A stretch of DNA of 21,137 nt from a virus, in IMG/VR virus record IMGVR_UViG_3300025286_001564, positions 1-21,137 of that record; one strand, 5' to 3'. Made by a program: the position numbers and the translations under genes. The notes under the pieces are model-generated. The model was not told the origin of the DNA and made no database searches. It saw nothing but the letters and a program-made list of their open reading frames with translations. Every line of letters begins with the position of its first letter. The stretch's first letter is position 1. Positions 1 to 21,137 of the stretch are shown here, one piece after another.

Positions 1-393
1 GCTTCGTTCATCAACTGAGCTAGAAAGGAGACCTGAGACGTTTTCCAAGAGGATATATCTGGGAGCCACTTCACGAATAACTCTGAGCGTATCAGGCCAT
101 TTGTTTCTGGAATCCTCAGAAGATCGCCTGGCTCCAGCAAACGAGTGCGGCTGGCAGGGGAATCCTGCTGTAACGAGGTCAACCATTCCTCTAAACTGTT
201 CACCCCTAAAGGAAGATATATCGGAGAAGATGGGTGCGTCCGATAAGAGTTTGTCTTTGATTCTTGCTTTGATAATTTCTTGTGCATACTTCTCCCATTC
301 GACATAAGCTATTGTCCTTGTGTTAATATTAGCGAGTTTCACGCCCAGGCTAATGCCTGAATATCCGGTAAACAAACTGAGTTCAGTAATCAT
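1..393 (-). CDS. C5-cytosine DNA methyltransferase, N-terminal part (cut by window edge)
   Basis: The ATG at 393 opens a frame that runs off the left edge after 131 residues. Motif I is seen as LFTGYSGISLGVK (residues 7-19), followed by an acidic residue for the cofactor in YVEWEKYA. The catalytic loop of motif IV is GFPCQPHSFAG with Cys80, and motif VI is LLENVSG (about 115-121). These are the ordered N-terminal motifs of enzymes that transfer a methyl group from S-adenosylmethionine to cytosine C5. The recognition domain and motifs VIII-X lie outside the window. The start overlaps the stop of the sigma-like gene as ATGA and has a GAGGGGG ribosome site, so it is translationally coupled at the distal end of the leftward operon. 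It probably protects phage DNA from host restriction. No restriction enzyme is visible beside it. Confidence 0.93.
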   Translation of the reverse strand, partial: MITELSLFTGYSGISLGVKLANINTRTIAYVEWEKYAQEIIKARIKDKLLSDAPIFSDISSFRGEQFRGMVDLVTAGFPCQPHSFAGARRSSEDSRNKWPDTLRVIREVAPRYILLENVSGLLSSSVDERS

Positions 394-896
394 GTACGCC
401 CCCTCATCATCTCGAATGCCCGGCGTTCTATCTGTTGGGCTCGTTGCTTGGTGACATTTAATCCTTCACCAATCTCTGCATGTGTTAACCGAAACTCATG
501 GTCCGGGTTCAATCCAAAGCGATCCATCACAACGCCCTTGTATTTATCCGGGAGTACACGCAACACCAGGGTAACCTGCTGTGCCAGTTGCATTGGCGTA
601 CCATCTAGATCAAGTGATAGCTGTTCCAGAAAGTGACGCCTTCTCTTATCCATCGTAGGCTCCTGGTCTTCTTCAATCCCTCGTGCTTGTACGAGGACTA
701 GCTCTATAGCTTTTGGAACCAGGCGTTGACCACAAAAGCATTCCACCTGGTAGGTGGCATAGCGATTGTTGTCTTTAATATGAATAGAGGTTCCTGTTAT
801 GTACCCCTGGTGTTTCCAGTGCCTATTGTATTTTGCGGTTCGAGGTACGAACTGCACCTTATCCCCATAGTAAAACTTACGTGAGTTGTTTCCCAT
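390..896 (-). CDS. Sigma-70 region 4-like DNA-binding protein (no region 2)
   Basis: This is a 168-residue protein counted from the ATG at 896, which has a GAGGGGAG ribosome site five bases upstream; a GTG at 911 is a longer alternative. The last 60 residues match sigma-70 region 4: an LRVLPDKYKGVVMDRFGL helix, then RLTHAEIGEGLNVTKQRAQQIERRA, the recognition helix-turn-helix that contacts -35 elements in RpoD-type sigmas. No region 2, the part that melts the -10 element, is present. The N-terminal 70 residues look beta-rich, with KFYYGDKVQFVPR and a CFC pair, and I do not recognise them. It overlaps the gene before it by 20 bases and the methyltransferase after it by four. It could be a late transcription factor or a regulator that captures host RNA polymerase. 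The region-4 call is firm; the role is inferred. Confidence 0.8.
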   Translation of the reverse strand: MGNNSRKFYYGDKVQFVPRTAKYNRHWKHQGYITGTSIHIKDNNRYATYQVECFCGQRLVPKAIELVLVQARGIEEDQEPTMDKRRRHFLEQLSLDLDGTPMQLAQQVTLVLRVLPDKYKGVVMDRFGLNPDHEFRLTHAEIGEGLNVTKQRAQQIERRAFEMMRGRT

Positions 897-1308
897 AATG
901 TCTCCCCTCACAGGCTTTGCAGTTAACTATCGCAGCCTCTGAGCAAAAATTTTCTGGTGCATGTATGCACTCGGTATCCTGTGGTGCTATCTCCCGGTAT
1001 AGTTTCTCTAGTCTATCCCATAAATCCAGATGATCCATCAGCCATTCATGTGTATGGATCATCCTCTCTTGTGTGGCCGTCAGCATTGCTCGAATACCCG
1101 GTAGGTCTGCCGTCAAGGTAACGAGATCCTGTTTGTTATTCTTTAACATCTTCATTATTATCTCGAGTTGGCCTGGGTCTATTGTATCAGGGGGTTTCAC
1201 CCCTAGGTCCGCACCATCCGGGATAATCGTGAAGCCATTAAGGCGTACAGTTTCATAGAGCTGTACGCCTTTTTCAATTTGTCTAAGGTCTACTATATTT
1301 TGGTCCAT
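877..1308 (-). CDS. Hypothetical protein with Cys-rich C-terminus
   Basis: This is a 143-residue protein that I do not recognise. The ATG at 1308 is preceded by a strong GAGGGGGGAG ribosome site and overlaps the end of the ATPase gene by 16 bases. The middle is helical (about residues 45-110) and could form a short coiled coil. The last 30 residues hold four cysteines in the order CIHAPENFC then CKAC, a spacing that could bind zinc. It sits between the RepA-like ATPase and the sigma-like gene, so a role in DNA metabolism or regulation is plausible, but nothing in the sequence fixes it. Confidence 0.8.
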   Translation of the reverse strand: MDQNIVDLRQIEKGVQLYETVRLNGFTIIPDGADLGVKPPDTIDPGQLEIIMKMLKNNKQDLVTLTADLPGIRAMLTATQERMIHTHEWLMDHLDLWDRLEKLYREIAPQDTECIHAPENFCSEAAIVNCKACEGRHYGKQLT

Positions 1309-8062: not shown

Positions 8063-8076
8063 ATAGGGAGATGTTA

Positions 8077-8568
8077 ATGGCAAAGCGTAGCACAAAGGGA
8101 AACTACGACAATACGCCCGAAGGCATGGCCTTAAACAAGAAGCTATTGCTCCAGGCCGTAGAGGAATGGGGTGGTAACTCCAAGGCAATCAAGGTAGCCG
8201 GCATTTCCCGGGCTACGTATTTCAGATGGATAAAAGATGACCCTGGTTTTGCGGACGATCTCGAGCAGTCCAAGGTAGCATTTGGGGAGAAGATGTTAGC
8301 GGTGGCGATTGACAGGGTTCAGAACCCGGACAAGAATCGTGGATCTGATGTTTTGCTTATTTCTTTATTGAATGCGTTCCTGGGCCATATCTTTAAGCCG
8401 CAGATGGTTGTTGGGGAAGACTCGGCGAGGGAGCTTATCACGGAGTGGCGCAAGGCTGCCCGTCAGGAATTAACTAGCCAGGAGCCTTTATCTGAGAATA
8501 TTGAAGAGACGCTGGATAGTATTCTGGATAGAAAGAGGACTGGCAATGGCGAAGCCCAAGTCGATTAA
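8077..8568 (+). CDS. terS: Terminase small subunit
   Basis: This is a 163-residue protein from the ATG at 8077, chosen over the ATG at 8071 because GGGAG ends directly before 8071 and sits at proper spacing only for 8077. The N-terminal third carries a helix-turn-helix typical of small terminases: AVEEWGGNSKAIKVAGISRA, then TYFRWIKDDPGFADDLEQSK, the usual 'W-x-x-D-P-x-F' signature. The middle is helical (ISLLNAFLGHIF) and likely the oligomerisation part, with a charged C-terminus. It would recognise the packaging site and feed DNA to the large subunit. It is the first late gene, placed after the repeat-rich control region, and its end overlaps the basic micropeptide by 23 bases. Confidence 0.88.
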   Translation: MAKRSTKGNYDNTPEGMALNKKLLLQAVEEWGGNSKAIKVAGISRATYFRWIKDDPGFADDLEQSKVAFGEKMLAVAIDRVQNPDKNRGSDVLLISLLNAFLGHIFKPQMVVGEDSARELITEWRKAARQELTSQEPLSENIEETLDSILDRKRTGNGEAQVD

Positions 8569-8632: not shown

Positions 8633-9991
8633 ATGACTACTGCCGTTAGGAAGCCGGTTAGAGACCAGGTATTTGATATAGTGGGCTTTGTTCCTACCAA
8701 GGAGCAGAAGGTTATTATAGATTCTCCGTATCGGTTTAACCTCGTGGCCGGGGGAGAGCAGGCTGGTAAGAGCATGATTGCTTCCAAGTATCTCCTGCAC
8801 CAGTATTTCTTACATAATGAAGAACATGGTCCTGCGTTATATTGGCTGGTAGCTGCGGACTACGAAAGAACAAGGGCTGAATTTGAATATCTCAAGGATA
8901 ATTTTGGGATATTGAAGATGTTAAAGAAATATTCTCTCCGTGTAGATCCCGGGTTCCTGGAATTGGTGGACGGCACGAGGATAGAGACTAAATCCGCTAA
9001 AGACCACAGGACACTGGCAATGAGAGCCCCCAACGGAATACTTGGGTGCGAGGCATCTCAACTGGATTTAGATACATTCCACAGGCTTATGGGCAGATGT
9101 GCCCCTAAAAAGGGATGGCTGTTCCTCTCAGGTACATTTGAGGGATCTCTCGGATGGTATCCACAGATGTTTACAGCGTGGGCATCGGGAGCTGATAAGC
9201 AGGCCAGGGCCTATTCCCTACCGAGCTGGACTAATAAGTATTTATATCCGGGCGGAGAGAACGATCCAGAGATTATCAGGCTGAAGAATTTAGCCAGCGA
9301 TGACTTTTTTATGGAACGTATAGCAGGAAAGCCCAGTCCTCCAAGGGGTCTGGTCTTCCCTGAGTTCCGGCCTGATGCACATGTCGGCAACGTGGAGTAT
9401 GATCCCCATGTCCCTGTTCATATATGGATGGACCCGGGGTACGCCGGAGCATATGCAGTCGAGGTGATACAATTCGTTGGGGAACAGATACGGGTTATCG
9501 ATGAAATATATGAACAGGGTTTAATAACCGAGGATATTATAGATATTGTTACTGCCAGGCCGTGGTGGCGGGATGTAAAGTACGGCGTCATTGATATAGC
9601 CGGTACCCAGCACCAGGCAATGGCAGCTCCCGCAGAGCTGTGGCTGGATAAAGCAGGGCTCTTTATGGCTAGTCAGAAGATAAAAATCAATGAAGGATCT
9701 GAAAGATTGAAGAGCTGGCTTAAAATTGACCCCTCTACACACGCACCAAAGATAGTAATAGACGCAAAGTGCCAGGGATTACTGTCAGAATTCGGTGCAT
9801 CGCCTAATCCTTTCGACGGACAAACGAAAGCATATAGGTGGAAAACAGATAGAGAAGGTAATATAGTGGGGGAAGTACCTGAAGATAAGAACAATCACGG
9901 CGTCAAAGCCCTTATCTATGGACTGATTGATAAGTTTGGCTACGGATATGTACACAACCGTGACAGTATTCGCGTAAAAAGGTGGGTATAA
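8633..9991 (+). CDS. terL: Terminase large subunit (packaging ATPase/nuclease)
   Basis: This is a 452-residue protein with AGAGG six bases before its ATG. The ATPase half has Walker A GGEQAGKS (40-47), a Walker B strand ending GILGCEASQLD with catalytic Glu140, and the coupling motif LFLSGTFEGS (about 164-172). The nuclease half has metal-binding Asp267 in IWMDPGYAG and Asp321 in GVIDIAGTQ, and a C-terminal KNNHGVKALIYGL helix where many relatives carry the third acidic residue. It pumps DNA into the prohead through the portal and cuts the concatemer. The aspartate usual before the catalytic glutamate is Cys here. It directly abuts the portal gene: the ATG follows the TAA with no gap. Confidence 0.95.
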   Translation: MTTAVRKPVRDQVFDIVGFVPTKEQKVIIDSPYRFNLVAGGEQAGKSMIASKYLLHQYFLHNEEHGPALYWLVAADYERTRAEFEYLKDNFGILKMLKKYSLRVDPGFLELVDGTRIETKSAKDHRTLAMRAPNGILGCEASQLDLDTFHRLMGRCAPKKGWLFLSGTFEGSLGWYPQMFTAWASGADKQARAYSLPSWTNKYLYPGGENDPEIIRLKNLASDDFFMERIAGKPSPPRGLVFPEFRPDAHVGNVEYDPHVPVHIWMDPGYAGAYAVEVIQFVGEQIRVIDEIYEQGLITEDIIDIVTARPWWRDVKYGVIDIAGTQHQAMAAPAELWLDKAGLFMASQKIKINEGSERLKSWLKIDPSTHAPKIVIDAKCQGLLSEFGASPNPFDGQTKAYRWKTDREGNIVGEVPEDKNNHGVKALIYGLIDKFGYGYVHNRDSIRVKRWV

Positions 9992-11839
9992 ATGGCACGT
10001 AGAAAACCAGAAGATATCGTTAAGTTAGTGGATGCCCACTATAATGCGACCGAACCGCTCAGACAGAGAATGCAGGATGACCATTCTCTGTACAGGCTGG
10101 ACCCCTATGACGCAGGGGAAGGCTATCAGTCATATACTTCTAATGAACCACACAATTACGCACAGAAAGTAATCGGGTGGATAGCAGGAGCTGAGATGAC
10201 TGTGCGTATTCCGCACGACCAGGCCGACCCGGAACTACGCGACCGCAATGATTTAAAGGAAAGATTCCTTATTGGTATTATTAAAGCAGCGGATGAGAGG
10301 CTCTGCCGTATGATGCTGCCCACGGTACGAGATCAACTTGCATGGTATTCTTCACTCCGTGGATGGTACTCCGGCAGAGCCTTGCTGGCAAAACGGGACG
10401 ATGGCACAACATACGTGGATATCACACCCTGGGACCCGATGCATACTTACTGGGGCGTCGGATCAGACGGATTAGAGTGGGCGTGTTACAAGGTTCCTAA
10501 GACCAGAGATCAGATACTGGCGCAATATAATGTACGCGTCGATTGGGATAGCCAGTATACAGCCGAGGGCATAGATGTCTATGACTTCTATGATAAGGAA
10601 ATGAACACGATTATTATCCACGCAGGCTCTGAGAATCAGCCTTTAATCAGGGTTGTGAAGAAACAAACCAAGCACGGAGCCAACCAGGTTCCTGTATTTT
10701 TGGGACCGATAGGATCTAATCCATACATAATCGCTATGACCCATACGAATATGGACAATACTATCGCTGATGTAGGCGAAGCAGTGTACACGTCCACTAG
10801 GGATTTGTACGAAAAACATAACATGATGATGAGTACAATGCTGGAGATGACAGCAAGATCCAGGAGGCAGGGGCTTATTGTAAGATCCAGAGATGGAACA
10901 AAAACTTTAGATGAAGATCCATACCTGGAGGGTTCTGAGATTGCGCTTTCACAAAACGAGAACGTGGAACCCCTGGGACTTCTGGAAGTGGCCAAGGAAA
11001 CAGGTGCGTTTATGCAGCTCGTATCCGGGGAAATGCAAAGAGGTGCTATCCCCTACTCAGTATATGGGGATGTCCCCTTCCAGCTCTCAGGGTTTGCTAT
11101 TAATACACTCCGACAGGGAGTGGAAACAGTAGTAAGTAAATACCTGAGAGGCGTAGAGAAAGCCTACGAAATGATATTCAATTTAGTATCAGATCAATAT
11201 GTAACCGGATCGTTCCAGTCGCTAGAGTTATCAGGAATGGATCGGCATAGAATGTATTTCACAGAGACAATTGAACCTGATATGCTGAAAGCTACCGGCG
11301 TTCCGGTCGTGAATCTGGTCGGACAATTGCCACAGGACGATATGACCAGGTACTCAATGGCACAGATTGCCAGGGAAGGCCCAACGCCTCTCTTGTCAGA
11401 TCGTGCAATCAGAGATAGAATCTTGGCTATACAAGACGCCGACCAGATGGATGACTCTATTAAGGAACAAATGGCGGAAAGAATGTTGCCGGAAGCAGCA
11501 TTGTGGACGCTACTCCGAGCATCCGAGCGTCAAGGGCGTGAGGATCTCGTCAGTTTTTATACAGGAGAATTGATGAACGTGATCATGCAGAAGCGACAGG
11601 CTGCACAGATGATGCAGCAACAAATGGCAATGCAGGCCGGTGGACCCCCAGGACCGGGGGGACCCCCCGGACCGGGCGGACCCCCTTCCCCGACCGGACC
11701 TCCCGGGGGACCACCGACTACCCGACCAGAAGTAATGCCTAATGCCATGATGGGCGTACCCCCTCCAGCTCCTACGCCACAAGCAGGACCACTAGTACCG
11801 CCGGGCACTCCGAGACCTGGCGCACAAGGAGGGCCATAA
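9992..11839 (+). CDS. Portal protein with Pro/Gly-rich C-terminal tail
   Basis: This 615-residue protein lies immediately downstream of the large terminase, in the usual portal position. It has a portal-like pattern: an N-terminal region (about 1-90), a mixed crown/wing region with ITPWDPMHTYWGVG, then long helices with TSTRDLYEKHNMMMSTMLEM and AIPYSVYGDVPFQLSGFAINTLRQ, and a Gln/Met-rich helix near 530-548. The last 65 residues are low-complexity (GGPPGPGGPPGPGGPPSP and similar), probably disordered. The portal forms the dodecameric ring for DNA entry and exit. The AAGGTGGG ribosome site overlaps the terminase end. The function rests on position and helix pattern, not on a single motif. Confidence 0.85.
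   Translation: MARRKPEDIVKLVDAHYNATEPLRQRMQDDHSLYRLDPYDAGEGYQSYTSNEPHNYAQKVIGWIAGAEMTVRIPHDQADPELRDRNDLKERFLIGIIKAADERLCRMMLPTVRDQLAWYSSLRGWYSGRALLAKRDDGTTYVDITPWDPMHTYWGVGSDGLEWACYKVPKTRDQILAQYNVRVDWDSQYTAEGIDVYDFYDKEMNTIIIHAGSENQPLIRVVKKQTKHGANQVPVFLGPIGSNPYIIAMTHTNMDNTIADVGEAVYTSTRDLYEKHNMMMSTMLEMTARSRRQGLIVRSRDGTKTLDEDPYLEGSEIALSQNENVEPLGLLEVAKETGAFMQLVSGEMQRGAIPYSVYGDVPFQLSGFAINTLRQGVETVVSKYLRGVEKAYEMIFNLVSDQYVTGSFQSLELSGMDRHRMYFTETIEPDMLKATGVPVVNLVGQLPQDDMTRYSMAQIAREGPTPLLSDRAIRDRILAIQDADQMDDSIKEQMAERMLPEAALWTLLRASERQGREDLVSFYTGELMNVIMQKRQAAQMMQQQMAMQAGGPPGPGGPPGPGGPPSPTGPPGGPPTTRPEVMPNAMMGVPPPAPTPQAGPLVPPGTPRPGAQGGP
11638..11835 (+). repeat. GC-rich low-complexity repeat encoding the portal tail
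   Basis: Short units built from GGACC and CCCGG repeat here and encode the Gly-Pro-Pro-rich tail. The stretch is much richer in GC than the rest of the operon and is open in several frames on both strands. Confidence 0.8.
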
Positions 11840-14582: not shown

Positions 14583-14948
14583 ATGGCTAATGGTGATGCA
14601 TTTACAGACTACCTAGCGGGTGGTGGCTGGGGATCATTATCGCCGGCGGTTGGGCAAATGGTTTTAGCCCAGCTTCCACAGGCGGCATACTTTAGTTCGC
14701 CTGCCGGAGAAGCCTTTGGAAGCCAAAGCCCACGTCGCAGTCGCTATATGCAAAGGGCATATCAGGATGTTTATGGTGATTATCTTGGTGAAATTGGCAG
14801 ATCATTCCGCCAGGGTCAACCCCCTGCTACATTCATGGACTATCTGGAAACAGATCCGTGGACTAAGAGATATGGTCAGCTACCGCAATTCGAGAGGGGA
14901 GTCACACAGCAGTTTACTAATCCAAGAACGAGGTTCATCTTTTATTAA
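14583..14948 (+). CDS. Unknown late protein, 121 residues
   Basis: The ATG at 14583 has TAGGAG seven bases upstream, partly formed by the preceding stop. The protein is Gly/Ala-rich at the N-terminus and aromatic-rich at the C-terminus (YMQRAYQDVYGDYLGEIGRS, ATFMDYLETDPWTKRYGQ). Its opening residues resemble those of the gene before it, and both contain xxFxDYL/FLxYL-type segments, so a duplicated short module is possible. It ends with TAATG, overlapping the start of the giant gene by one base, so the two are translationally coupled. Function unknown. Confidence 0.78.
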   Translation: MANGDAFTDYLAGGGWGSLSPAVGQMVLAQLPQAAYFSSPAGEAFGSQSPRRSRYMQRAYQDVYGDYLGEIGRSFRQGQPPATFMDYLETDPWTKRYGQLPQFERGVTQQFTNPRTRFIFY

Positions 14949-17900
14949 TGCCTAGCGAAGAACAAAGAGAAAAACTACGCCAGATGGCAGAACAACGGCG
15001 GCAGAGGGAAGAACGACAAGCCCGGCCTATTCCCCAGACGGGAATGAATTTGGCGGGCAAATATCTTGCGCCTATTCTCCAGAGCAAGCCGGCACAGGCT
15101 GCTATGGAATATCCTCGCCGTGCTGCGGTTGAGGAGATTCAGAGAATCGGAGAATTGAAAGAGGCCTACGAGCAGGGCGGAATAGGCGGTATGTTATGGC
15201 ATGGAGCAAGAGAGTATGGAAGCGATATTTTAGATATCGGGGCGGATGTTTCGTCTGGGTTTGGATTAAAGCCTGGTGGAATGCCAGAGAGCTGGGGGGA
15301 GAGGCTAGATCCTTCTCGTAATGTAGAGCTTGGGGCACAAGTCGAGGCAGACAAACAGGCCTTTCGTGATCGTGAAGGCCGTAATCCCACGATGACAGAA
15401 GAATACGATATCATGGCGCAAGTCCAGGATGTAGCAATGCCCTGGCTAACAGAACGCCATAAGGTTGGGCCGGTAGAGTTTTCTAACAGGATGCTTGTTG
15501 AACTGCCAACGGAAGTGGCAGCCGGTATTGGAGAGACGGTATTAACCGGGGGCACGGCATTTGCCGCAAAGACTGTTGCAAGGCTAGGTGCTAGGAAAGC
15601 AGCTCAGATGGGAGCTGATACCCTGGCTCAACAAGCTGCACGTAATACGGTAAGGGCTACCACAGAAGCAACCAGACAAGCATTATTAATTCCTAAACGT
15701 ATTGATGATCTTGCAGGGCGCATAATAACAGCACCTTTTAAAGCAGCCTTTACTGGCGTCCGAGGTGGCATTGCCGGTACCAGGCTAACATTTAGGGGAC
15801 TTGAAACTATGGTTAATAAGTTCCGCAGGAAGGCACAGGAAGAGGGCCTGCCCATGGATCAGGTTAACGCAACTGCAAAGCAAGCAGTTGATGATGCCGT
15901 GAACAGCGGACATATTGAAGGCGTACCTTTTGATTATGTCTTCTACGATGAAATGTTTGAAGAACAGCTCGACAATCCGACTTGGGTTTTGCCTCGACAA
16001 GAAGTGGAAGGCACAGTTACCGCACCAGTTACCACGGTAGTACGCCTAGCGGAGTCTATGGCTGGTACTGGCACACTTGCTGGAGGCCTAAAACCAGGTT
16101 CTTACGTTAATGTACACGTTGATGAATATGATCCAGAGATTATCCAGGCGTTCAATATCGCACATGGAACGAACTTCACCGCGAGGAGCATTGCTGATGA
16201 TGCTTCCTTGCAGTCACTGATCGCTTCTAATGCCGAGCATTACCACGCCTCTCCAGTTTGTAAGAAATTTTCATTAATAAATCCCAACCGGATAGTTGAC
16301 GAGAATGATTATGCCATCGCAACATCCGTGGCAAGAAACATACGCATGACCAGCCCCAAGACTATTACCATAGAAAATGTTCCGCAGTATCAAAACACGT
16401 TGCTGTTTAAGCAAATCACAGATGCAATAGATGCAGATTCTATTGGGTATAAATGGGATGTACAACTAGTAAATGCTGCTGACTACGGTGGGTCGCAGCA
16501 CAGACCTAGAATGCTTCTTAGGGCTGTTCGCAATGATGTTGGTGAGCTTCCAGCTCTTCCTGAGAAAACAGGTCCGACAGACTGGTATGACAACCTGGAG
16601 GATTTAATTAAAGCAGAAGAGGATGCTGGTAATGCAATGTCACTCGCCCAGGCGTTTAGGCCTATCACCCGTGAGACCCATTGGGAGGTAGACCGAATAC
16701 GTACTATGATTGCAGAAGGAAAGCTAGATTCTAACCGGCCTATTTTAACCACAGGGGGATCAGGTGTCTTTGAAGAGGCCAACGCGAGAAACTCCGGGAG
16801 AAACCTTCATACTAGGGAGTACGCTGGGCCACAGGCAGGGGGAACACTTGTAGCGTCCAAGGGGCAAGTGCCACGTATTATTCTGCCAGGGCCAACAGGG
16901 ATTGATGATGAAGCGACGAAAGTGATAAGGGCAACCCCTGATATGTGGAAAAGGTACATGGGCCTTCCTGATGATTTCGTTATACCGCCCCCAGGTAAAT
17001 ATGGGAAGGATTACACAGGCAATCAACTTGCCAAGACAGTACTTGGTAATGGCATACATGGGGCGGTGACCAGGGACTTTATACAGCCTATCGTGGATAT
17101 TCATCAAGCCAAACGCCTAGTTGATACCCCGGACATCAGGCCAAACGCAGCAAACGATTTTGCCGCACAGCAAGCGTCTGCCAATGACAACACCTTTGGT
17201 GTACCGGATATTGAGATGGTGTCACCAAGGACCGGGTTTGGTAGCAAAATGCTACAGACATATCAAAATGTAAAGTCGGCCATAGCAGATAAAACAGCGG
17301 TTAATGCAACAAATAATCTAATGGCTACGGCCAACAACATGTTGCGACGCAAATCCACAATAATACCGGATCTTTTTCAACGAAGGACAAAACCTGAGAC
17401 CGCAGAAGAATTATATGAACGGGGGATTGGAAGGGAAGCTGCTGACAAGATTAAAAGTTGGTCTGACGGTACGGCTAACCGGGTTGAAGGACATGCGACC
17501 GTTGTTAGGGAAAAGACGGGGATTGGGATTGCCACAATACAGGCATTGTTTCCTAAACTATTAAAGTCCAACATGGGTGGTCCGATTGAAAGGCGCATAG
17601 CACAATCTTTTGATGCGGACAATAATATTGTTACCGCCCAGGGGGAACTCTTAGAGAACTTATTGTTATCAGAGAAACAGGGCAATCAGATTAACTTTGC
17701 TTTTACAGATGAATATTTTATAGACAACAATATAGATCAAACTGTATTGGGTAACTCTATAGTTGACCTCAGTACTCCCGCAGGCCAGAGGTATAAGAAT
17801 ATTGCTCCTGGCGATGTGAAAAAAAATATGAGGGGGGAAGACATAAGCCTGACTCTACAGCCGGGATATCGTGATGTAGTGGAGCGACTACCTTTATATG

Positions 17901-20900
17901 TAGCTGCATTAAAGTCTGCCGTTGTTACGCTAGACAAGGATCTAATAGGGAGAGTTAATAAACGTGGGGGTTCGTTGTTTGGATTCAAAGAAGGAGACAA
18001 GGTGTCAGCGTATGACATTATGTCTGAACTTGCCGCGATACCCAAAAGGTATGAGGCGCAATTAATCCAAGAGGGAGTTGGCGGAGCTGGCAAAGCTCGC
18101 CACGTTTTATACAATGAAGGTGCCGGATATCAGCCCAGTAATGTCATGGGAGAATCGGTACAAGATGATGGTGTGTTGTCACGGGGGTTGAGTGAATTAG
18201 AATTATCAGACCAGGGTGATATACCAAAGAGATGGGGAGTGAAATCCGTGAAAGAACGAGAGATGCCCTCGCAGGCTCTAGGCATGTTCTTTCGTCATGT
18301 GTATGCCAGTCCTGCTGTATCTAACGGTGAGTTTGTGGAATACGCAGGCAACATAGTGCAGAACAGAAAGCTGGGCCAGTATGTTAATCGGATTGCCAAT
18401 GAAAACATGAAGGGTAGATATGGCACAGTCGCACAGCTTGTTGGCGAAAAGGTTTATAAAAAATACAACATTAACTTGGTCGAGATCAAACGGCTATTAA
18501 AGAATGTTGCCAGAAGAGAATGGACGGGCCGTGGCAGGCAGGCACGTCTCCTATCGAGAGCTGAGGTTATTATTGCCGAGATGGAAGCAGCCGGTAAAAT
18601 CACCCCTAATGTCACTAGCGATTTGGGAGACATTGATATATCTGTGATAGCACGGGCGGAAACGGATCGCCTCGAGGCAAGCCTTGTTAAGTGGAGAAAA
18701 GAAATAGATAGCCTGATGACCAACAAGGGCTGGAACAAGGCCGAGAAAGAGAGACTTACAAAATTATTCAAGAAGGCTACCCGTGATATGGAACAGATGA
18801 AAAAAGAGGTCACGGGCCGTATGGGCCAGTTATCCGGCATTGGACTTGAGGGACATTATTTCCCGGTATTATTTAGAGACGCCATCATAGAGAGCCAAGA
18901 GTTTATAAAGCGTACTACAGATCCATCAGGTTTTGCCAAAGCGTATATGGCTCTTAACAATCTGATGAGAACCTATGGTGCAACTGGGGACATGAGTGCT
19001 ATGGGTATTCAAGGGTGGTCTACGGTTATGAACGATGCACTACGTCGTGTCGTAGAAGACCCGTTGCGCAAAGGTACAGGCAGGGGTCAGCATTTACTTG
19101 TAGCTGACCGACGGGGTGATGGCATCACTGCCATTCGTGATTCCTGGGAAGCTTTTGTTCATGCAGGACCCGAGGTTGTTGGAGAGTTCTTCCAGCTACA
19201 AGATGTGTTGGCTAAACAAACAGGTAGGGCAACACCACTAGAAGCTGCCAGTTCTGGGTTGGCCATACTAGGCAATGCCCCGGATATGTTCCTTAATAGG
19301 CGCATGGCTCAATTTCCTGGTTTGAAAAACTTTGACAGAGCATTTACGCACTACGGCAACGTACTACGATATCAGCTCTTTGATGCTGAAATGCAATTAC
19401 GAATGGTGGATACAGGGATGACTACCAAGCAACTCATAGATAGTGGGGATGCAGCACAGATATCTTCTATAGTAAACGTAATGACCGGTGTGGGTAAGCG
19501 TGGGTATGGTGGCAGTATAGGCCAGTTCCTCTTATTTGCACCACGCTTCTTTGCCGCCAGAATGAGTTTCGCAGGCCATGCTATTAAGGGAGCCGCTAAA
19601 GGAGATAGGGCTACATTACAGGAACGCATTGCCAAACAATACATGAGTAAAATGATGGGCACGGCAACATTCCTTACCTTTGCTATCAATGAAGCGATGG
19701 GAGAAGAAACAGATATCAGTCCCTGGCTACGAGACGAGGCAACCGGTAAGTGGCACTTCAACCCAAACTTTATGCGTATCCATGTAGGGGATTTAGATAT
19801 TAGTTTATTCGGCCCCTGGGATACAATGTTCCGAATAGCATCAACGCCATTCTTTGCTGTGGCAAATGGCATAGGAGAGGGGGGCGGAATAGACGAGAGC
19901 TTCAAGGCTTTCCGGGGATTAGTTAGCGGACCTGCTGCAAGTCTAGCTATGGATCTTGCTACGGGCACGGATGCTATTGGCCAGACTACACGTCCTATTG
20001 TCGGCAAGCAGTTAGTCGATGGCGAGATAGTACATGTAAGTAATTTTGATAGCCTAATGAGCGGACAAACAATAGGGACTTTGGCGGAACACCTGATTCC
20101 CTTTGCCTGGGACGAACTGTTCCGTGCAGATCCGGGTAAGGAATCCTTAATACAGAGGACATATGGAGGGGTGCAACAGATAAGACAAGGCGATGTATTG
20201 GGTGGTGGAGCAGACATTGCGACAGCAGCAGGCCAGGGACTCGGCCAATTGTTTGGCATAAAGAGTAGCTATGAATCCCTTAATGAAACATTGGATGAGG
20301 TGTATGCATCGGTTCTGGAACTAGGCCCGACCAATGTAGATTTACAGGAAGCTTTCAGTATGACTGAAGGCGAACTGGCAGAGTATCTAAGGGACATTGG
20401 TAAGGGTGGATGGAATGATGGGCGTGGCTTTGATGTTAGTCTCAGCATCAGGAGATTGTTGTCGGGCAACCAGACGCCAAGCTTCTCTGAGGTTGCCGGC
20501 GATTATCGCAAGAACATTAAAAGAATGACAGAAGAAGGTCGCTTTGCAGATATTCTATCTCCAGAGGATTGGGAGAAGGCAAAGGCTAAGATTGACGAGA
20601 GGGTTCGGAATAGTGCTAGCGAGTACACTAGATACAAAGCTGAACGAGACCGCCTTTTAGTAGAGGAGCAGAATTTTTTACAGGTAGCTGAAGACGCATT
20701 TATAGCTAATGGAATGCAAAACATAACAACATATTACGCAGATGTACGAGAGATACGTAAAGAGGCTTCAGATAAAAGACGTGCCCTTACCGGGCCACAG
20801 GGAGCTTTTAGGGGTGTAGACGAGCTGTTTACTTTTGGACGGGAATCTTCTTTGGGTATATTATCTAACGCTGATGTTGATGTATATGACTTTGCCCAGG

Positions 20901-21137
20901 CGTCTTACTATGACAAGCTATATGGAGAAGATAACATCATTATCCCAGCCACGGGTGAACCGGACTGGGATAAGCGAGACCGCAAGCTCGAGGAGTGGGC
21001 GGTCGATATGAAGAAGAGGTTTAAGACTCTAGCGGATTCTGACATTGCGTCCTATCTATTAAGGGTACAACAGTCAGCCAAACGAGAAGCCCCTCCCGTT
21101 GCCAGTGCTATGCTGGAAATATCTGAGCGTATTGCAC
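14948..21137 (+). CDS. Giant polyvalent-type virion protein with embedded C5-cytosine methyltransferase (3' end outside window)
   Basis: The frame from the ATG at 14948 stays open for 2063 codons to the window edge. Residues 1-30 are a charged coiled coil; about 30-360 are mostly helical with an Ala/Gly-rich amphipathic part (185-290). Residues about 364-720 form a C5-cytosine methyltransferase: motif I RLAESMAGTGTLAGGL (366-381), motif IV ASPVCKKFS with Cys438, motif VI IENVP (475-479), motif VIII NAADYGGSQHRPR (509-521), motif IX TREYAGPQAGGT (622-633) and motif X VLGNGIHGAVTRDF (from about 698). The rest is long and helical. QFLLFAPRFFAARMSF (about 1526-1541) and MRIHVGDLDISLFGPWDT (1609-1626) resemble, from memory, segments of large polyvalent phage proteins (LPD38-like). 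The start is coupled to the preceding gene. Ejection with the DNA is inferred. Confidence 0.9.
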   Translation, partial: MPSEEQREKLRQMAEQRRQREERQARPIPQTGMNLAGKYLAPILQSKPAQAAMEYPRRAAVEEIQRIGELKEAYEQGGIGGMLWHGAREYGSDILDIGADVSSGFGLKPGGMPESWGERLDPSRNVELGAQVEADKQAFRDREGRNPTMTEEYDIMAQVQDVAMPWLTERHKVGPVEFSNRMLVELPTEVAAGIGETVLTGGTAFAAKTVARLGARKAAQMGADTLAQQAARNTVRATTEATRQALLIPKRIDDLAGRIITAPFKAAFTGVRGGIAGTRLTFRGLETMVNKFRRKAQEEGLPMDQVNATAKQAVDDAVNSGHIEGVPFDYVFYDEMFEEQLDNPTWVLPRQEVEGTVTAPVTTVVRLAESMAGTGTLAGGLKPGSYVNVHVDEYDPEIIQAFNIAHGTNFTARSIADDASLQSLIASNAEHYHASPVCKKFSLINPNRIVDENDYAIATSVARNIRMTSPKTITIENVPQYQNTLLFKQITDAIDADSIGYKWDVQLVNAADYGGSQHRPRMLLRAVRNDVGELPALPEKTGPTDWYDNLEDLIKAEEDAGNAMSLAQAFRPITRETHWEVDRIRTMIAEGKLDSNRPILTTGGSGVFEEANARNSGRNLHTREYAGPQAGGTLVASKGQVPRIILPGPTGIDDEATKVIRATPDMWKRYMGLPDDFVIPPPGKYGKDYTGNQLAKTVLGNGIHGAVTRDFIQPIVDIHQAKRLVDTPDIRPNAANDFAAQQASANDNTFGVPDIEMVSPRTGFGSKMLQTYQNVKSAIADKTAVNATNNLMATANNMLRRKSTIIPDLFQRRTKPETAEELYERGIGREAADKIKSWSDGTANRVEGHATVVREKTGIGIATIQALFPKLLKSNMGGPIERRIAQSFDADNNIVTAQGELLENLLLSEKQGNQINFAFTDEYFIDNNIDQTVLGNSIVDLSTPAGQRYKNIAPGDVKKNMRGEDISLTLQPGYRDVVERLPLYVAALKSAVVTLDKDLIGRVNKRGGSLFGFKEGDKVSAYDIMSELAAIPKRYEAQLIQEGVGGAGKARHVLYNEGAGYQPSNVMGESVQDDGVLSRGLSELELSDQGDIPKRWGVKSVKEREMPSQALGMFFRHVYASPAVSNGEFVEYAGNIVQNRKLGQYVNRIANENMKGRYGTVAQLVGEKVYKKYNINLVEIKRLLKNVARREWTGRGRQARLLSRAEVIIAEMEAAGKITPNVTSDLGDIDISVIARAETDRLEASLVKWRKEIDSLMTNKGWNKAEKERLTKLFKKATRDMEQMKKEVTGRMGQLSGIGLEGHYFPVLFRDAIIESQEFIKRTTDPSGFAKAYMALNNLMRTYGATGDMSAMGIQGWSTVMNDALRRVVEDPLRKGTGRGQHLLVADRRGDGITAIRDSWEAFVHAGPEVVGEFFQLQDVLAKQTGRATPLEAASSGLAILGNAPDMFLNRRMAQFPGLKNFDRAFTHYGNVLRYQLFDAEMQLRMVDTGMTTKQLIDSGDAAQISSIVNVMTGVGKRGYGGSIGQFLLFAPRFFAARMSFAGHAIKGAAKGDRATLQERIAKQYMSKMMGTATFLTFAINEAMGEETDISPWLRDEATGKWHFNPNFMRIHVGDLDISLFGPWDTMFRIASTPFFAVANGIGEGGGIDESFKAFRGLVSGPAASLAMDLATGTDAIGQTTRPIVGKQLVDGEIVHVSNFDSLMSGQTIGTLAEHLIPFAWDELFRADPGKESLIQRTYGGVQQIRQGDVLGGGADIATAAGQGLGQLFGIKSSYESLNETLDEVYASVLELGPTNVDLQEAFSMTEGELAEYLRDIGKGGWNDGRGFDVSLSIRRLLSGNQTPSFSEVAGDYRKNIKRMTEEGRFADILSPEDWEKAKAKIDERVRNSASEYTRYKAERDRLLVEEQNFLQVAEDAFIANGMQNITTYYADVREIRKEASDKRRALTGPQGAFRGVDELFTFGRESSLGILSNADVDVYDFAQASYYDKLYGEDNIIIPATGEPDWDKRDRKLEEWAVDMKKRFKTLADSDIASYLLRVQQSAKREAPPVASAMLEISERIA

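Follow-up and report, generated by a model that had tools for sequence, protein, structure and literature searches.

The window, by which we mean the whole stretch of 21,137 nucleotides analysed here (positions 1 to 21,137 of virus record IMGVR_UViG_3300025286_001564), combines an opposite-strand block at its left end with a head gene cluster on the plus strand. The left block begins with the 5' part of a separate, canonical C5-cytosine methyltransferase (MTase) gene (1..393, minus strand; motif GFPCQP; PF00145, E 2.5e-25), and the same block holds exonuclease-like and primase/helicase-like genes. This solo MTase is complete in contig L009 (562-1833, minus strand), whose terminase is 100% identical to that of the window; its stop-to-stop frame has 424 codons, with the first Met at codon 25. 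At 390-911 (minus strand), the window also encodes a small protein whose C-terminal part is similar (E 5e-6) to the end region of PHROG_351, a family of RNA polymerase sigma factors.

On the plus strand, a probable small terminase gene (8071..8568; weak match to PHROG_4044, E 0.00098) and a large terminase gene (8633..9991; PHROG_2, E 1e-20) precede a probable portal gene (9992..11839), which has no family match in Pfam or PHROGs and is assigned from its position in a conserved gene order. Further downstream lies the giant protein gene that is the subject of this report (14948..21136, plus strand). The first-pass annotation had placed this gene in the late operon after terminase and portal; the place in the head cluster and the terminase are confirmed, and the "portal" stands by position only.

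Relatives were collected from viral contigs in two ways, namely through the large terminase (the best 80 of 124 loci) and through a search with an alignment of the giant's core, which yielded 42 loci. Altogether, 43 giant frames were read (the core set plus L003), of which 30 are complete and 21 of these distinct; some frames come from one contig, for example L003 and L093. In contigs that reach far enough, the terminase is followed by the portal-position gene and then by three small or variable genes, the giant, a gene of about 250 aa and the major capsid gene, the last supported by PHROGs and by tblastn matches at 29-34% identity to Pelagibacter phage capsid proteins. In distant relatives, some neighbours escape recognition by sequence: L119 and L123-L130 are without two variable genes, L116, L120 and L122 show only a weak capsid match among the neighbours, and L117 and L121 show no neighbour match. 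The genes of L026, L070 and L084 occupy the same place and align poorly, and we treat them as doubtful homologues; L013 is not a homologue and was dropped later. All four are nevertheless among the 17 proteins of the Pfam and PHROGs scan described below. After the capsid gene lies a 255 aa gene (L003:17644-18408) that is 89% identical to its counterpart in L101, with a pS of 0.60, compared with 67% for the capsid and 71% for p421 between the window type and L101, which points to mosaic exchange at other places among the late genes.

Compared with the terminase, portal-position and capsid genes on the same contigs, the giant has diverged much more rapidly. Between L108 and the window, the major capsid protein (MCP) is 93% identical, the portal 85% and the terminase 82%, compared with 39% for the giant; for L113, the corresponding values are 67%, 78%, 73% and 32%. 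Apart from L005 and L006, relatives carry giants that are 25-39% identical to that of the window. This rapid divergence suggests host-driven diversification or frequent exchange.

The giant frame (14948-21136, plus strand) runs without a stop over 2,063 codons and continues past the window end, and its ATG overlaps the stop codon of the preceding gene (TAATG). The whole gene is present in L003, a near-identical contig (99.993% to the window over 15,140 bases), where it encodes 2,198 aa, so that the unbroken frame of at least 2063 codons read in the first pass is borne out. Three parts can be distinguished: an N-terminal arm (residues 1-345, 14948..15982), conserved in relatives that have no MTase; a C5-cytosine methyltransferase module (residues 361-725, 16028..17122); and a C-terminal arm from residue 741 (17168..21136, where it leaves the window), common to the MTase-less relatives, the best-conserved core of which spans residues 1291-1640. 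All these sequences are metagenomic contigs, and an MTase gene could in principle have been wrongly joined to another gene during assembly. However, the same fusion is found in L002 and L003, further contigs of the same phage, in L005 and L006, two contigs that encode a 75%-identical protein, and in the divergent L110, and we consider an artefact very improbable.

Residues 361-725 of the giant form a full C5-cytosine methyltransferase domain. PF00145 matches residues 368-695 in a Pfam profile search (E 4.2e-22, 79 bits against a cut-off of 22), and it also exceeds the cut-off in the giants of L005 (69.5 bits) and L110 (70.8 bits); PHROG_116 and PHROG_363, both annotated as DNA methyltransferase, match as well. 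The NCBIfam dcm model TIGR00675 scores 44.3 bits (E 1.7e-11), below its cut-off of 100.65, which marks the domain as a divergent member of the family; the solo MTase of the phage (L009) reaches 99.5, just under the same cut-off. C5 MTases carry a set of named motifs in a fixed order, including the catalytic Cys, ENV, QxRxR and GN. In the giant, M371-A-G-T-G (motif I), A434-S-P-V-C438-K (motif IV; Cys438 codon at 16259..16261), E476-N-V (motif VI; residues 476-478, 16373..16381), Q517-x-R-x-R521 (motif VIII; 16496..16510) and G700-N (motif X; residues 700-701, 17045..17050) follow one another in this order, and Cys438, ENV, QxRxR and GN are retained in all three MTase versions found.

An AlphaFold2 model of the domain, built from six sequences (pLDDT 69.5, pTM 0.73), aligns with M.HhaI (1fjx) over 293 residues (Z 22.5, rmsd 4.0), and the alignment covers residues 9-372 of the 391 in the model. 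The domain is thus predicted to adopt the SAM-dependent Rossmann fold together with a target recognition part. Among proteins of solved structure, the nearest in sequence are M.HhaI and M.HaeIII (E about 8e-5). In BFVD, the model matched ordinary C5 MTases and also longer proteins, including A0A8S5V6E6, a 1,154 aa protein named DNA polymerase, which indicates that large phage proteins with a C5 MTase-type domain exist elsewhere. The proposal of a complete C5 MTase with its core motifs in order, made from the letters of the DNA, is therefore upheld by profile, motifs and predicted fold.

C5 MTases usually have Pro before the catalytic Cys and Gln after it, and the same residues are visible in the alignments to sequences of solved structure. 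In the giant, V437 stands directly before Cys438 and Lys follows it, and the ASPVCK loop is common to all three MTase versions. These two substitutions would favour a domain that no longer methylates and instead binds DNA as a clamp during packaging or ejection. Against such a loss of activity, the motif residues are kept across MTase versions that differ at 38% of positions, and some solo phage MTases, predicted to be active from their sequence, carry Cys or Glu in place of the Pro; we regard an inert clamp as improbable. Ten solo MTases had a readable motif IV and ENV. Five of them (Acica, L092, Farewell, BaxterFox and Seahorse) have SPCC or SPEC, with Cys or Glu before the catalytic Cys, and the other five have the usual FPC or PPC; this ratio is no estimate of frequency, because the Pro-less enzymes are L092 and relatives found with it, picked for the variant. 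HTVC111P gp17 (FPPC, ENP) and the canonical enzymes of L009 and L015 were left out of the ten. Since some solo phage MTases are likewise without Pro before Cys, the PVC loop appears to be no clear lesion and, taken alone, does not indicate inactivity. The loop had been singled out in the first pass as a variant whose activity should be checked; the Val is real, and it is less odd than was thought.

The MTase is an exchangeable module at one site in the giant. Homologues align to residues 1-345 and 741-2198, and the MTase stretch between them is absent. In phmmer comparisons, 19 of the 21 distinct complete giants lack the module, the exceptions being the window type and the L005 type; a third MTase giant, that of L110, is cut at its 5' end and contains the whole module. 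Six of the 43 frames carry the MTase, representing three distinct proteins with the module at one site. For a tree of the giant core, 11 frames were removed by name (duplicates, near-duplicates and short pieces) and three more by a length rule (L126, L128 and L130), leaving 29 rows; the MTase state was set to unknown in eight 5'-cut rows (L096, L102, L109, L111, L112, L114, L127 and L007). With these eight left out, the 21 remaining rows require two changes in MTase presence, and a single clade of MTase carriers is rejected (3 rows against 18; p-AU 5e-34, a model-dependent value on a tree with some long branches). L110 groups with the MTase-less L101 with a support of 100/100. In the giant of L007 (L007:1-2700, open 5' end), about 900 residues precede the first detectable match to the C-terminal arm of the window protein; these have no Pfam match and are perhaps a different module in the same place. 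Close relatives of the giant MTase subtype were found only in giants, with L092 as a distant one at 29% identity, and a search of bacterial genomes for the giant MTase, using a pattern pre-screen that misses distant relatives, returned nothing.

Comparison of the window with L110 revealed that the module is more similar than its surroundings, also at silent sites, on which the function of the protein places no constraint. Amino acid identity is 62% in the MTase, 50% in the core and 24-36% in the arms, and pS is 0.57 in the MTase, compared with 0.78-0.90 in the other parts of the giant and 0.77-0.82 in the control genes p251, MCP, p255 and p421. Third bases at fourfold sites are equal in 48/108 cases in the MTase and in 71/256 in the arms (Fisher p 0.0023; chance 0.25). 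In 60-codon segments, the values are 0.48-0.66 within residues 351-710 and 0.67-0.97 outside; these ranges almost touch, and the silent signal is therefore a property of the whole module, not of each piece. Misalignment hardly explains the low pS of the MTase, since in this pair the capsid and p421, at 65% and 63% amino acid identity, have pS values of 0.77 and 0.82. Judging from this lower silent divergence, the MTase cassette probably moved between lineages, or entered both from related donors, after the giants diverged. Between the window and L005, equal fourfold sites are no different in the MTase (101/143) and in the rest (430/608; p 1.0). In this pair, dN/dS is 0.27 in the MTase, 0.34 in the N-terminal arm, 0.21 in the core and 0.37 at the C-terminal end; the value of 0.27 places the MTase under purifying selection.

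Apart from the MTase, no named domain was found in the giant above Pfam cut-offs in sets of 17 and 15 proteins, and PHROGs returned only MTase families below E 0.005 for the 17. Sub-threshold Pfam matches were set aside, namely PspA_IM30 (E 0.003, in 2 of 15), PRC (0.009, in 1 of 17) and DUF2385 (E 0.021, in 2 of 17). Neither Pfam nor PHROGs matched the arms to a virion-protein family or the giant to a helicase or LPD domain; a direct LPD38 search matched nothing, but neither did its controls, so that it carries no information. A model of residues 1001-2198 was of low confidence (pLDDT 60, pTM 0.36). With this model, BFVD gave three unnamed or uncharacterized matches at E <= 0.001 and two "large polyvalent protein associated" proteins at E about 1-1.5, and the PDB gave mostly helical look-alikes (best Z 9.3, YicC, 114 residues). 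A search of 50,697 phage records with residues 767-2063 returned no homologue; plasmids likewise gave none for residues 1296-2198, and bacterial genomes none for the giant core, the last again through a pattern pre-screen that misses distant relatives. With no named domain besides the MTase above cut-off and a poor model of the C-terminal arm, the earlier suggestion that the C-terminal half resembles large polyvalent proteins is unsupported: Pfam and PHROGs do not back it and the structure search was uninformative. A remote relation may exist.

We propose that a competent C5 MTase is carried as an exchangeable module in a giant head-cluster protein whose arms form an internal, ejected virion protein, and we give this reading a probability of roughly 45%. 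The arms (residues 1-345 and 741-2198) would most likely make a virion protein that is ejected with the DNA. Once delivered, the MTase domain would draw on host SAM in the cytoplasm and methylate the entering genome at cytosines within a specific sequence. Such methylation would precede early gene expression and thereby blunt restriction, and the solo canonical MTase would keep up modification during replication. We infer the enzymatic activity of the domain, its target and the late expression, packaging and ejection of the giant from the features described above. The head-cluster position fits a packaged DNA-modifying protein and is also compatible with an assembly factor. Of the packaged-MTase idea as first put forward, a conserved and selected C5 MTase in an unbroken head-cluster giant stands, and presence in the capsid and entry into the cell stay inferred. 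The lack of the module in most relatives, its apparent exchange between lineages and the solo C5 MTase at the left end go beyond that first reading.

The main rival is an active MTase that is never delivered: the late-made giant would methylate progeny DNA inside the cell that produces it, while packaging is under way or shortly beforehand, and the domain would be an ordinary anti-restriction MTase of a phage, fused by chance to a head-assembly protein. The giant gene adjoins the portal-position and capsid genes in the head cluster, the enzyme appears intact by PF00145 and by its M.HhaI fold, and C5 MTases are common in phages, with 814 phage records matching one such enzyme, all of which would suit late methylation. 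However, the phage already has a solo C5 MTase, and late methylation does not need fusion to a fast-evolving scaffold of 2,198 aa; we consider this rival unlikely, though a serious one. The second C5 MTase counts against delivery as well. Alternatively, the chief substrate of a delivered MTase might be host DNA, with the effect of altering the expression of host genes or of blocking host nucleases. The rapid divergence of the giant suggests host interaction and would agree with such a target, but an MTase near the ejected DNA would presumably reach that DNA first, and a main action on the host strikes us as distinctly improbable. The fuller proposal is that the virion delivers an exchangeable C5 MTase cassette, housed in a hypervariable head protein that is ejected, and that this enzyme modifies the incoming genome or the host DNA ahead of all phage gene expression; it is tentative, and we place it short of an even chance.

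If the giant travels in the particle, the phage would bring its own DNA-marking enzyme at entry. A C5 cassette moving between head-cluster giants would demonstrate that the chemistry of packaged DNA modification can be swapped. A clean natural comparison is available between relatives that carry the module at this site and those that lack it there, and entry-time methylation is directly testable by 5mC mapping.

The closest relatives in organisation are the MTase-less giants of the same uncultivated phage family (such as L101, L094 and L108), which share the arms and the gene place and have neither the MTase module nor any named domain above Pfam cut-offs. Solo phage C5 MTases, such as those of PaV-LD, Pseudomonas phage U8 and Acidovorax phage Acica, have the same kind of domain and the same motifs; unlike the module, they are separate genes of 308-528 codons (six checked at full length) outside a head-cluster protein, and five solo phage MTases found with the giant's domain are 23-28% identical to it.

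The closest system in kind is DarB of phage P1 and the DarB-like polyvalent proteins, including those of the Thermus Lalka phages. According to PMC5512222 and PMC11437467, these proteins, like the giant, are very large, head-linked and equipped with an embedded DNA MTase. DarB is packaged and belongs to a system that guards DNA from restriction; packaging of the giant would be the corresponding step. According to PMC9024508, DarB resides in the virion head, from where it is believed to pass into the cell, and a stretch of its first 30 residues is enough to send a reporter to the capsid. The mechanism by which DarB protects is unsettled as a precedent, and physical shielding of DNA by Dar proteins is reported as an idea in PMC12707154. 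The DarB-type enzymes methylate adenine at N6 and almost always occur in fusion with an SF2 helicase and LPD36, whereas the giant has a C5-cytosine MTase, no helicase or LPD match and no detected relation of its scaffold to theirs. MTases in polyvalent phage proteins are described as mostly of one adenine type in the survey PMC5512222, in which words beginning with "cytosine" occur once, in the reference list. Our searches of open-licence PMC papers brought up neither a packaged or virion C5 MTase nor a C5 cassette in a head-cluster giant. If our reading is correct, the giant would be a C5 answer, which evolved on an unrelated scaffold, to the problem that P1 DarB is credited with solving. Taken together, packaged MTases are known in kind from the adenine-type DarB, and what appears new here is a C5 cassette set in a head-cluster giant, from which it may be delivered into the cell.
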